The notes under the pieces were generated by a model. It was not told the origin of the DNA and searched no databases. It saw only the letters and a list, made by a program, of their open reading frames with translations. From positions 8,525-51,148 of the forward strand of contig PCCI01000013.1 of NCBI GenBank assembly GCA_002731655.1: a DNA stretch of 42,624 bases, written 5' to 3'. The DNA comes from Methanobacteriota archaeon. GTDB taxonomy: Archaea > Thermoplasmatota > Poseidoniia > MGIII > CG-Epi1. Both the position numbers and the translations under genes were made by a program. Shown here in pieces: positions 26,302 through 30,068 of this stretch (positions within the stretch are counted from its first letter, which is position 1; the number at the start of each line of letters is the position of its first letter).

Positions 26302-26759
26302 CAGTCGCGCGCCAGCCCTTGCCGCGCCTCGTCCAAGAACGGCGCGACGTTGACGCCCGCGTCGGCCGCCAGCAGTAGCGCCTCGGTCGTGGAGCGGATT
26401 CCGTAATGCGTTTTCTGCCCCCGGTTCACCTTGCGGATGACCTCGCGCTGTGAGTCGCCGGTCGCCTCCGCGACCGCGGCGACGACGCGATGGAACAGGT
26501 CGGGCGTATCGTCGGCGGGCGGTGGTGCGACAGCGGGCACCGGTTCTTCGGCCGGCGCGTCGCCCTCCCCGACTAGCCGCAGCTGTTCGCCCACCGGCTC
26601 GAGCAGCCCGCTCGCAAGCGCCGCCTCGATGGCGGCGGCGGCAGCGGTGGGCGACATCAGGTGCAGACTGAACGCCAGCTCCTGCACCAGCTCCTCGCGG
26701 CGCAGCTTTTCGGCGTTGCGTGAGTGGAAGGCGGCGGCGACTAGTTCCGGCTTAACCAA
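26301..26759 (-). CDS. DUF2240 family protein
   Basis: A 152-residue archaeal protein. The N-terminal region AAFHSRNAEKLRREELVQEL resembles the start of DUF2240 proteins, a helical family of unknown function found mainly in Euryarchaeota. The middle has an Ala/Pro/Glu-rich linker (68-88). The C-terminal helical part is RKVNRGQKTHYGIRSTTEALL. Both conserved blocks point to a winged-helix-like or helical domain. The gene overlaps TiaS by one base and the upstream gene by eight, so it is co-transcribed with them. Confidence 0.7.
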   Translation of the reverse strand: MVKPELVAAAFHSRNAEKLRREELVQELAFSLHLMSPTAAAAAIEAALASGLLEPVGEQLRLVGEGDAPAEEPVPAVAPPPADDTPDLFHRVVAAVAEATGDSQREVIRKVNRGQKTHYGIRSTTEALLLAADAGVNVAPFLDEARQGLARD

Positions 26760-27324
26760 GGCGAAACACCTCGCCAGTCCAGTTTGGCGGATGGCCGTCG
26801 GTGAGCATCACGACGTCGAGCCGCACGCTGCCGGCGAGCCCGGCCGGGATGAAGGGGAAGCTGCCGTCGAGGCTGTTGACCATCACACGTGGGACATTGC
26901 GGCGCAACAGCTGGCGCAGCAACTCGACGATGTCACCCTGGAAATCGGTGTGCGCGGCGACAGGCTCTTCGGCCCAGTCAAGGCTCACCAGCTCCAGCTC
27001 GGCGTACGCCAGCGCCTCGTCCAGCTCGCCCCAGCCGCGCAGCGACCGCAGCGGGACGATGACGCTGCCGCGGTCGGCCATGATAGCGTCGATGACGTCC
27101 TCACCCCATGCCATCCCCGAGTCGACCAGCGTCTCGCGCTTCGGGTTCAGTGGCAGCAGTCCCGGCGCGGGGCGGTTCTTCAGGATGCCGCGCAGGTCCC
27201 ACACCAGCAGCGACCCCTCGCCATCGAACTCTAGCGGTTCGTCGGCGCGGCCGGTCACCAGCCGCTCGCCGTTCCACGCGACGCTGACGCGCCTGTTATT
27301 GAGGTACGCTACTGCTTCCGCCAC
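26752..27324 (-). CDS. Hypothetical protein, possible HisA-related TIM barrel
   Basis: A 190-residue protein of uncertain family. Phrases such as LLVWDLRGI, ETLVDSGMAWGEDVID, SVIVPLRSLRGWGELDEAL and LVSLDWAEEP recur in order. Each is a short strand ended by an Asp or Gly and followed by a helix, as in (beta/alpha)8 barrels related to HisA/HisF (COG1411-like). It is shorter than a full barrel of about 230 residues. The start is GTG at 27324, with a TATA-like AACCTAAATC (27345-27354) 21-30 bases upstream, at the tail of the surface-protein gene. It leads the operon with DUF2240, TiaS and EamA. The TIM-barrel link is tentative. Confidence 0.55.
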   Translation of the reverse strand: MAEAVAYLNNRRVSVAWNGERLVTGRADEPLEFDGEGSLLVWDLRGILKNRPAPGLLPLNPKRETLVDSGMAWGEDVIDAIMADRGSVIVPLRSLRGWGELDEALAYAELELVSLDWAEEPVAAHTDFQGDIVELLRQLLRRNVPRVMVNSLDGSFPFIPAGLAGSVRLDVVMLTDGHPPNWTGEVFRLG

Positions 27325-27347
27325 GACAGGCGAGCGCTGCGGCTGAT

Positions 27348-29429
27348 TTAGGTTTGCGCGGGACGGGAGGCCAACGTATTCCTCTGGCGCCGATAATTCA
27401 GCCCAACCACCAAAAGGACTGAAAGCACGGGTGCCAGCAGTGTCGAGAATTCCGGGATTGCGGCAGGGGTAGTGTAATCGCCTTCACTAGCACCTGGAGT
27501 TGGGTTTCTAGTCGTTTTCCAATTTGAACTAGAATCAAACATATCCCCTGCAGTGTTTGAAGTAACTGCCTTGAAGATGTCAGCCCCGTCCACTGGTGTA
27601 AAACTATCAGATATACTTATGGCCAAGGCAACTCTTTCTTGATTATCGGTTGTTGAATAAACAAAATAGTTACTATCACACTTTTCCGCATCTCCAACCC
27701 ATCTACCGCCAAATGAAGAACTCCAAGTATAAACTCTGGCACAGGATTCACTATAGGATGCTATAAGAAAATCGAAGTTTGAATCACTACTACCATCATT
27801 CATAAGGATGGCATATGTCACATCATCTGCTGTAGGGTCTGCCTCTAAGAAAAATTGAAAATACATAAATTCAGACCCATCATAGTTGTACATTAGATTA
27901 TCAAATCTGCTACCACTGGCTGTATTGAATATATCTGCTGCATTTGTTGAAGCATCATTATTATCGGCTCCTAATATTTCCCAATCTCCGCTATTCCAAG
28001 CAGGTATACTGGGGGTGCCTCGGCTCCCGGACTTATCTTCCTGTTGACTAAATCCAGCAGAGTCCTCCCCAGCATCCCAGCTGGTCAAGTGGATGTAGTA
28101 TGAACTGTCGCTCCCGGGGATGTAGGCTTCGAGTTCAATCTCGCTTCCCGCCGTAGCTGCATCGATCGAGGTGGCGCTGCCCCAGGTAAAATCATCGCCA
28201 TCGCCAGTATAGGCCTTAATGACACGCTGGCCGATTACCCCTAAATGGCCGGTAATCTCAATCATCATATCGGCACCCATCTGGACTTCCAGTCCTTGGT
28301 AACCGGTGAAGAGGTCGTCATCGGTATCGAAGAATAACCGGATGGCATCAATGCTAGTGTCTACCGGGAGTAGTGTGGACTGCTGGTTGCCGCTGACCTG
28401 TTCTGGTTCTCCGGTAAGATCGCCTGAAGGGCGGGAATGGCTTTCGAGTTCCGGAATCGCGACGCCCGCCAGGACATCGCCCTCGACCTTGAGGTAAAAG
28501 GAGGTCAGGCCGGACTGCTGGATAGTAGCATATTCGGACAGGTCAACATTGGGGTTTCCCGCGTCGCCACTGCCATCTGACTGTTTCGAAATAGGAGTCC
28601 AGTCGTCAAACTGGCCATCGATGGAGATGACGGGACCGGTCCTCTGTGAGTTCGCGACCTGCCGGGCATTCGAGATTGCGCTGTCCAAGGCGATATTACC
28701 TGATTGCAGGGAGACTATGTTGTCTCCCAGATCATCGTTGCCCATGCTGTCGCCGGTCTGCCACAGGAGGCGGGCGTCGGCGCTCCTGCTCATTCCAAGG
28801 TCGAAGAGGGGTACCTGCATCTCAACCGAGGTGCCGGTGCTGTCGGTTCGAGCCTCCAGCCATGTCAGGGCAGTGAAACCATTCCAGTCATGGCGATCGC
28901 GCGAGTCATCGAAAGTGTAGAGCACGGTCACGTTGGTGAGGCCAGATGAAGACAGTGTAGTCTGGGATCGGCCGTATACCTCAATGAGGTGGTCTGCACC
29001 GATACCGGGCAGGGCATAACCCGTCATGGCATTTTCATCGCTGTCAATCAGGACACGCAGTGTATGGCCCTCCTGCGAGGTGAAGATTGGCTCAGCCGTG
29101 GTGGTCAGTAACGAGAGGAAAACCGCATCAATCTGGAAGGCGTTTTCAATTAGGTCAATATTGGCGTTACCGGTGTCGCCAAGGGCGTCAGCAGTGCGTG
29201 TAACACCGTCCCAGTCCTCCATATCTCCATCGATGTTGATTAACCCTTCATATTCCTGCGTCTTCCAGAGGACAAGATAGGCAAAAAGCGAGAGCAGCAG
29301 TAGAATTACGACAATTGTCACGATATATGGACGCATTGCTTCCAGTCTGCGTATACGTGAGTGGAATCCGTGCGTAACCGCCCGTTCCAACGCCTTGCGT
29401 AAGACCGCCGCCGTTGATGAAAACCCCAC
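27348..29429 (-). CDS. Surface protein with repeated beta domains and PEF-CTERM-like anchor; N-terminus frameshifted
   Basis: A 693-residue open frame. It has an internal membrane helix (VTIVVILLLLSLFAYLVLW, about 38-56). Domain A starts at INIDGDMEDWDG, domain B at SIDGQFDDWTPIS, and a third, divergent domain follows. All carry 'DGxxxDW' openings and Asp-rich calcium-like loops (DSDENAMTGY, DTDDDLFTGY), like CBM9-type or related carbohydrate-binding folds. The C-terminus has AIPEFSTLLAPVLSVLLVVG followed by NYRRQR, the pattern of a PEF-CTERM archaeosortase signal. Part of it, about 27450-28010, is clearly AT-rich against its GC-rich neighbours. The first 31 residues are read in a frame that probably belongs to the longer gene beginning at 29526. 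The first downstream Met is at 29336. Confidence 0.75.
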   Translation of the reverse strand: MGFSSTAAVLRKALERAVTHGFHSRIRRLEAMRPYIVTIVVILLLLSLFAYLVLWKTQEYEGLINIDGDMEDWDGVTRTADALGDTGNANIDLIENAFQIDAVFLSLLTTTAEPIFTSQEGHTLRVLIDSDENAMTGYALPGIGADHLIEVYGRSQTTLSSSGLTNVTVLYTFDDSRDRHDWNGFTALTWLEARTDSTGTSVEMQVPLFDLGMSRSADARLLWQTGDSMGNDDLGDNIVSLQSGNIALDSAISNARQVANSQRTGPVISIDGQFDDWTPISKQSDGSGDAGNPNVDLSEYATIQQSGLTSFYLKVEGDVLAGVAIPELESHSRPSGDLTGEPEQVSGNQQSTLLPVDTSIDAIRLFFDTDDDLFTGYQGLEVQMGADMMIEITGHLGVIGQRVIKAYTGDGDDFTWGSATSIDAATAGSEIELEAYIPGSDSSYYIHLTSWDAGEDSAGFSQQEDKSGSRGTPSIPAWNSGDWEILGADNNDASTNAADIFNTASGSRFDNLMYNYDGSEFMYFQFFLEADPTADDVTYAILMNDGSSDSNFDFLIASYSESCARVYTWSSSFGGRWVGDAEKCDSNYFVYSTTDNQERVALAISISDSFTPVDGADIFKAVTSNTAGDMFDSSSNWKTTRNPTPGASEGDYTTPAAIPEFSTLLAPVLSVLLVVGLNYRRQRNTLASRPAQT

Positions 29430-29526
29430 CGTTCGTCAGCCCGTTGCCGTTCGTCAGCCCGTTGCCGTTCGTCAGCCCGTTGCGTTCCCTAAAGGCGTTC
29501 CTGCTATCAAAGTCGTCTTTACTCAT
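29337..29526 (-). pseudogene. N-terminal segment of the surface protein gene, in another frame
   Basis: An ATG at 29526 opens MSKDDFDSRNAFRER, then three tandem copies of a G-N-G-L-T-N hexapeptide, then GGVFINGGGLTQGVGTGG. Similar Asn-Gly-rich repeats of the 'NGLTNG' type at the start of secreted proteins are known to me from Thermoplasmata. The frame then loses coherence near 29365-29385, while the frame of the gene at 27348 continues as VTHGFHSRIRRLEAMRPYIV. A single-base indel in this stretch would join the two parts. Either the gene is inactive, or it uses frameshifting or a later start, or the sequence has an error. A TATA-like TTATTTAT lies at 29570-29577. Confidence 0.5.
29431..29484 (-). 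repeat. Three tandem 18-base repeats coding for Gly/Asn-rich hexapeptides
   Basis: On the plus strand the unit GTTCGTCAGCCCGTTGCC is repeated exactly twice (29431-29448, 29449-29466). A third copy at 29467-29484 differs only in its last base. Read on the minus strand each unit encodes a permutation of N-G-L-T-N-G. Such perfect short repeats are prone to gain or loss of units in replication. Confidence 0.85.
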
Positions 29527-29663
29527 GACTGCTGCAAATGGCGAACCGGAACTGCTTATTGAGGGGGAGATAAATAACCCTAGATAGTAACTGAAGCGTT
29601 TTTTCCCTGAGGAGATGAGCAAACGCCATCTGAATCAATCACCACGAAAAGCGAGAGCAGCTT

Positions 29664-30068
29664 CTACAAGTCGAGGATGACGCGCAACTGTGCTGGCGGC
29701 CCCGGCTCGACCTGCAATTCATGGTACGAAATCGCCTTCACCTCGACGCCGTAGCCGTCGCGCTCCGCGTCCCAGGCGGCGCCGCACAGCGTCGCCGCCA
29801 GCCGCCCGTCCGCAAGCGTGACCTCGGCTGCGCCCGGCAAGAATCCGTCGCCGTCGAACTCGACCAGCAGCCGCGACAGGAAGCGCACCAGCAGCTGCTC
29901 GCGCGTCCCGGCTTCCACCGCGAGCGTGCGCTCCTCCTGGGCGGGCGGTAGCGCACCGCCGGTAACAACCTCAGCCAGCGCCAGCGCCGCCTCGCCGAAG
30001 GCCGCGTCGAGCGACTCCGCCTCGATGGCGAGGCCGATGTCAGCAGTGTGTTCGAAGGTGCGGTGCAT
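29664..30068 (-). CDS. Archease
   Basis: A 134-residue protein of the archease family. It activates the RNA ligase RtcB, and so serves tRNA splicing or repair. The opening MHRTFEHTADIGLAIEA is the family's metal-binding N-terminal motif, and ISYHELQVE near the end is the other conserved block. A TATA-like CCACTTTTAC (30091-30100) lies 23-32 bases before the ATG, suggesting a leaderless mRNA. That box overlaps the 3' end of the tRNA gene. No rtcB gene is in the window. Confidence 0.93.
   Translation of the reverse strand: MHRTFEHTADIGLAIEAESLDAAFGEAALALAEVVTGGALPPAQEERTLAVEAGTREQLLVRFLSRLLVEFDGDGFLPGAAEVTLADGRLAATLCGAAWDAERDGYGVEVKAISYHELQVEPGPPAQLRVILDL

Follow-up and report, generated by a model that had tools for sequence, protein, structure and literature searches.

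A private single-base frameshift between the NGLTNG tail and the membrane helix of a surface-protein gene in a marine group III archaeon

In the stretch of DNA analysed here (the window, 42,624 nucleotides, part of a 43-contig genome that is 81% complete), a surface-protein gene carries one extra base between its N-terminal NGLTNG tail and its transmembrane helix, which places the tail out of frame with the rest of the protein. Among named genomes, the close relatives of this uncultured ocean archaeon include marine group III euryarchaeotes, and it most likely belongs to that group itself. On sequence comparison, the two halves are one gene that is split in the window sequence. The frameshift is most likely ordinary, i.e. 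a private indel or an assembly slip instead of a built-in switch, and a genuine recent indel (giving a broken or tail-less allele), not a programmed shift, is the favoured reading, with a probability of roughly 0.55. In practical terms, mechanical open reading frame (ORF) calling places the start of the gene on a false GTG and overlooks the tail.

The original prediction, made from the letters of the window, was that a surface-protein gene is split by a frameshift after NGLTNG repeats. This has been confirmed, as the two frames differ and the orthologue in genome G018 is continuous. The whole gene lies on the minus strand (27348-29526), and the frame bearing NGLTNG is not the long frame that ends at 27348. 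Frame 1 opens with ATG 29526, reads MSKDDFDSRNAFRER NGLTNG NGLTNG NGLTNG GVFINGGGLTQGVGTGGYARIPLTYTQTGSN... and terminates at 29250-29248, while frame 2 supplies the transmembrane helix from Met 29336 followed by the long ectodomain. Both frames are open from 29429 to 29250. The perfect 18-base tandem repeats noted nearby were recovered by TRF. The features of the locus are collected in Table 1, in which G018 and G020 denote the two genomes whose genes were compared with that of the window, and G016 a close relative in which the gene is missing.

Table 1. Features of the surface-protein locus in the window, listed in the direction of transcription of the gene
Feature	Position	Strand	Basis or remark
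Archease gene, upstream neighbour and anchor of the orthologous locus	29664..30068	-	Pfam PF01951, E 8e-29
AT-richer leader or intergenic stretch, 47% GC	29527..29663	-	Conserved in G020 and G018
N-terminal tail in frame 1, MSKDDFDSRNAFRER(NGLTNG)3...GGYARIPLTYTQTGSN, continued by out-of-frame residues as far as the stop (29250-29248)	29248..29526	-	MSKDD start conserved in G020 and G018
18-base tandem array encoding NGLTNG, 3.3 copies, perfect	29429..29487	-	TRF
Conserved pre-membrane motif GGYARIPL, frame 1	29359..29382	-	Reading frame shared with the array in relatives
One base more than in the orthologue, true frame joint; exact base ambiguous within the triplet	29336..29338	-	DNA alignment and codon-position pattern
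Internal Met 29336 in frame 2 and the transmembrane helix MRPYIVTIVVILLLLSLFAYLVLW that follows it	29265..29336	-	Met inside a continuous frame in G018
Two ectodomain beta domains with IDGxxxDW motifs	28017..29246	-	75-86% amino acid identity to G018
Variable third module, 34-53% identical to G018, GC3 0.35	27459..28016	-	Comparison with G018
C-terminal IPEFSTLLAPVLSVLLVVGLNYRRQR membrane anchor and stop	27348..27458	-	Common to family members
Downstream neighbour gene	26752..27324	-	Matching flanks in G016, 63 bp apart (surface-protein gene missing)

The position of the extra base is given by the nearest orthologue (G018, Euryarchaeota archaeon isolate NP112, PCBV01; L034), which reads ...NGLINGGGLTHGVGTGGYARIPLTYTQAGSMRPYIVTIVVILLLL... 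in a single frame and has its array, GGYARIPLTYTQ, helix and ectodomain all in that frame. Alignment of the window and G018 DNA over the tail and membrane region contains one internal gap, where the window has one base more, at 29337 +/- 1. The differences between the two sequences at 29412-29342 are distributed over frame-1 codon positions as [1,0,6], against [0,6,1] in frame 2, and those from 29333 downstream over frame-2 codon positions as [8,3,26], i.e. mostly at third positions. Because third-position differences move from frame 1 to frame 2 at the indel, the frame under selection switches there, and not at 29365-29385, where the jump had originally been placed (a displacement of ~30-50 bases). 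Furthermore, the window copy of the conserved motif GGY[AS]R[IV]PL lies in frame 1 across that proposed joint (29382-29359), which, together with the codon-position statistics, rules it out. GTG 29429, listed mechanically as the start of a 693-aa ORF, was likewise rejected as a start, lying as it does inside the frame-1 tail; the 693-aa ORF is an artefact of the shift.

Comparison with related genomes bears out the split as a property of the window. All of the other array-bearing genes with a readable array-to-helix junction (23/23, from marine group III and the other Thermoplasmatota loci fetched, the G018 orthologue among them) are single-frame, and the shift is private to the window, being found in no relative that could be read. 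The third-position excess is kept in the first ~400 codons of the downstream half, and frame 2 stays open to 27348. Of the earlier suggestions, two readings are still in play, namely a recent indel and an error of assembly or base calling. Neither relaxed constraint nor further lesions, the hallmarks of a pseudogene, were seen in the gene. Since both halves still look constrained, the event, which is private, would be recent if real.

A programmed +1 ribosomal frameshift joining tail and helix, also raised originally, would be possible in principle in the stretch where frames 1 and 2 overlap openly (29429 to 29250), but it is unsupported and highly improbable. The nearest orthologue needs no shift, 22 further genes likewise keep to one frame, and no conservation of a shift position or direction was found among the homologues. 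At the joint, neither a slippery heptamer nor an A-site stop was seen by eye, and no stimulatory RNA structure emerged from folding, with z-scores (+0.67 and -0.79) no better than those of shuffled sequences. Slippage of the 18-base units as a source of phase variation fares worse still and is, in principle, excluded. The number of units does vary between relatives, being 3 in the window, at least 4 in G020 and at least 9 in G018, but 18 is a multiple of 3, so that whole-unit changes keep the frame, as had been anticipated, and the indel lies outside the array, ~90 bases downstream, where no short slippage tract or other frame-altering tract was found.

A weightier alternative, and a real possibility even at somewhat below even odds, is an assembly or consensus artefact, whereby the base would be absent from the cells and would have arisen as the assembler crossed a short, possibly collapsed array shared by paralogues or strains. 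Of the 20 NGLTNG arrays in the order, 12 are no more than 20 bp away from a contig end; arrays thus break assemblies, making the consensus within ~100 bases of an array suspect, and the joint falls ~90 bases past this one. With only 3 units, as against the higher counts in G020 and G018, the window array may itself be collapsed. The literature prior points in the same direction, as Antonov et al. (2013; PMC3711429) expect most singleton frameshifts with homologues to result from sequencing errors. The window gene resembles such singleton frameshifted genes and young pseudogenes in its private indel, full-length homologues and lack of a recoding motif, but, unlike them, it comes from a metagenome-assembled archaeon and lies near an assembly-breaking repeat, where error is possible. 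Constraint on both halves is compatible both with a healthy gene in which the extra base is an error and with a mutation that happened very recently. Evidence against the artefact comes from the contig itself: across 29 ORFs (~9,400 codons; some few of the ORFs could be shadow frames) compared with G016, 0 coding-frame breaks were observed, so that indel errors are rare on this contig. Moreover, the extra base sits in unique sequence with no homopolymer longer than 2 at the joint, and both halves belong to the locus, which excludes a paralogue chimera. A genuine recent indel is favoured because no other frameshift occurs in the 29 neighbouring ORFs, no homopolymer is present and the gene has been lost in the closest relative.

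That loss is evident in G016, which is ~90% identical to the window in DNA over 27 kb and is devoid of the surface-protein gene (L133/L134, G016:C3 141.7-142.4 kb), having 63 bp where the window has 2.3 kb (window 27346-29663). Because so close a relative lacks it, the gene is dispensable in its lineage. The G018 orthologue, on the other hand, shares with the window gene its locus after the archease gene, the MSKDD start, the NGLTNG array, the helix, two IDGxxxDW domains and the C-terminal anchor, and differs from it in the continuous frame across the joint, the larger number of repeat units and a different third module. It is cut by the assembly within the array (end of C46, start of C21), and the genes that follow match the window order. 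The N-terminal fragment in G020 is also alike in its locus after the archease gene, MSKDD start and NGLTNG array, with more repeat units. Judged by these comparisons, the gene is old at the locus, lost in one close relative and broken in this assembly. A paralogue chimera at the array was ruled out by synteny and by the orthology of both sides (tail with G020 and G018; downstream part with G018 C21). Recent transfer from a G018-like cell was also rejected, as third-position divergence from G018 over the first 200 codons (~0.36) is like that of most neighbours (0.35-0.47); vertical descent would suffice for the first half of the gene, though its GC3 is low. The tail and first half have a GC3 of 0.63-0.68, which drops to 0.35 in the second half; in the other window genes tested it is 0.75-0.91. 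The second half, the part differing from G018 (34-53% identity), suggests a swapped C-terminal module.

For an indel that the cells themselves carry, the following history and fate of the products may be proposed. The gene is an ancestral one, flanked by the archease gene and the gene at 26752-27324, and it encodes a tail, probably cytoplasmic, of NGLTNG units, one transmembrane helix, extracellular beta domains and a C-terminal membrane anchor. One base would recently have been inserted at 29337 +/- 1, in the stretch that separates tail from helix, and would have put the tail out of frame; the start at 29526 would yield a product of ~92 residues without a membrane helix, and the ectodomain could be made only from a fresh start at the internal Met 29336, keeping Arg2 and the full helix.

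Compatible with such a recent indel, the split might function as two genes, the internal start at Met 29336 giving a tail-less surface protein with a positive-inside Arg2 and the helix. Frame 2 does offer an ATG right at the joint, and the helix after it is intact and the ectodomain constrained, but this reading is quite unlikely: the Met lies inside the continuous gene in G018 and is absent in other relatives, no clear ribosome-binding site is seen by eye, and the tail is kept in every other family member with a readable junction. Relatives beginning at Met 29336 had been named as an outcome that would overturn the split; this outcome was not seen, since G018 has the Met within its continuous frame and both G018 and G020 keep the MSKDD...NGLTNG start behind the archease gene. 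That the lineage has truly uncoupled the NGLTNG tail, with a tail-less ectodomain made from Met 29336, is very unlikely; if true, the uncoupled tail would serve as a natural deletion test of the function of the NGLTNG tail.

The gene belongs to a group termed here the Thermoplasmatota NGLTNG-tail surface proteins, a grouping made in this work. Its members start with an NGLTNG array at the N-terminus and a single helix, continue with two IDGxxxDW beta domains and a third module that varies, and end in the C-terminal anchor IPEFxxLLxPxxSVLxxxG. The window gene has the IDGxxxDW ectodomains and the C-terminal PEF...LLxPxxSVLxxxG anchor, as well as the N-terminal array and the single helix, but in different frames, whereas array and helix share one frame in all 23 of the others with a readable junction. 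Among 102 units matching the NGLTNG codon pattern, 60 different DNA versions occur; the peptide and not the DNA appears to be conserved, although the pattern itself requires the peptide. Strict arrays are present in 12 of the 21 genomes of the order and were found in none of ~120 sampled genomes of other families of the class, while four other sampled genomes of the phylum (G029, G099, G338 and G375; L138-L141), from scattered Thermoplasmatota families, do carry them. Arrays at contig ends are those of G018 C46/C21, G019 C6, G020 C137, G016 C8, G009 C26, G004 C2, G011 C15/C63, G007 C92 and G012 C15/C17. NGLTNG was not found in the literature searched, and the tail is apparently undescribed.

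Structural models of the ectodomain, with mean pLDDT values of 66 and 70, are moderately good and point to beta sandwiches. The two-domain model is beta-rich and matches family 9 carbohydrate-binding modules (1i82) with a Foldseek probability of 0.99 and a TM-score of only 0.43 on the target, while the single-domain model gave only generic beta-sandwich Foldseek hits, and profile searches of the ectodomain returned no Pfam or PDB-sequence match to such modules. The resemblance may be taken as a lead and not as a test passed. PADLOC and viral-contig searches of the locus gave nothing informative.

A front end made of NGLTNG tail and helix is thus common to surface proteins of the Thermoplasmatota. 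Since assemblies often break at the arrays, such surface-protein genes are probably under-counted, as in marine group III genomes. On the minus strand of another locus (L117, G011:C58), this tail and helix are followed by an ectodomain of another type, which looks beta-helical by eye, as though the pair could be carried from one surface protein to another. In G014:C12 (L052/L044, 39.8-40.9 kb), a gene of the family that is inverted and truncated lies directly next to an NGLTNG array, a join that is probably an assembly or amplification chimera.
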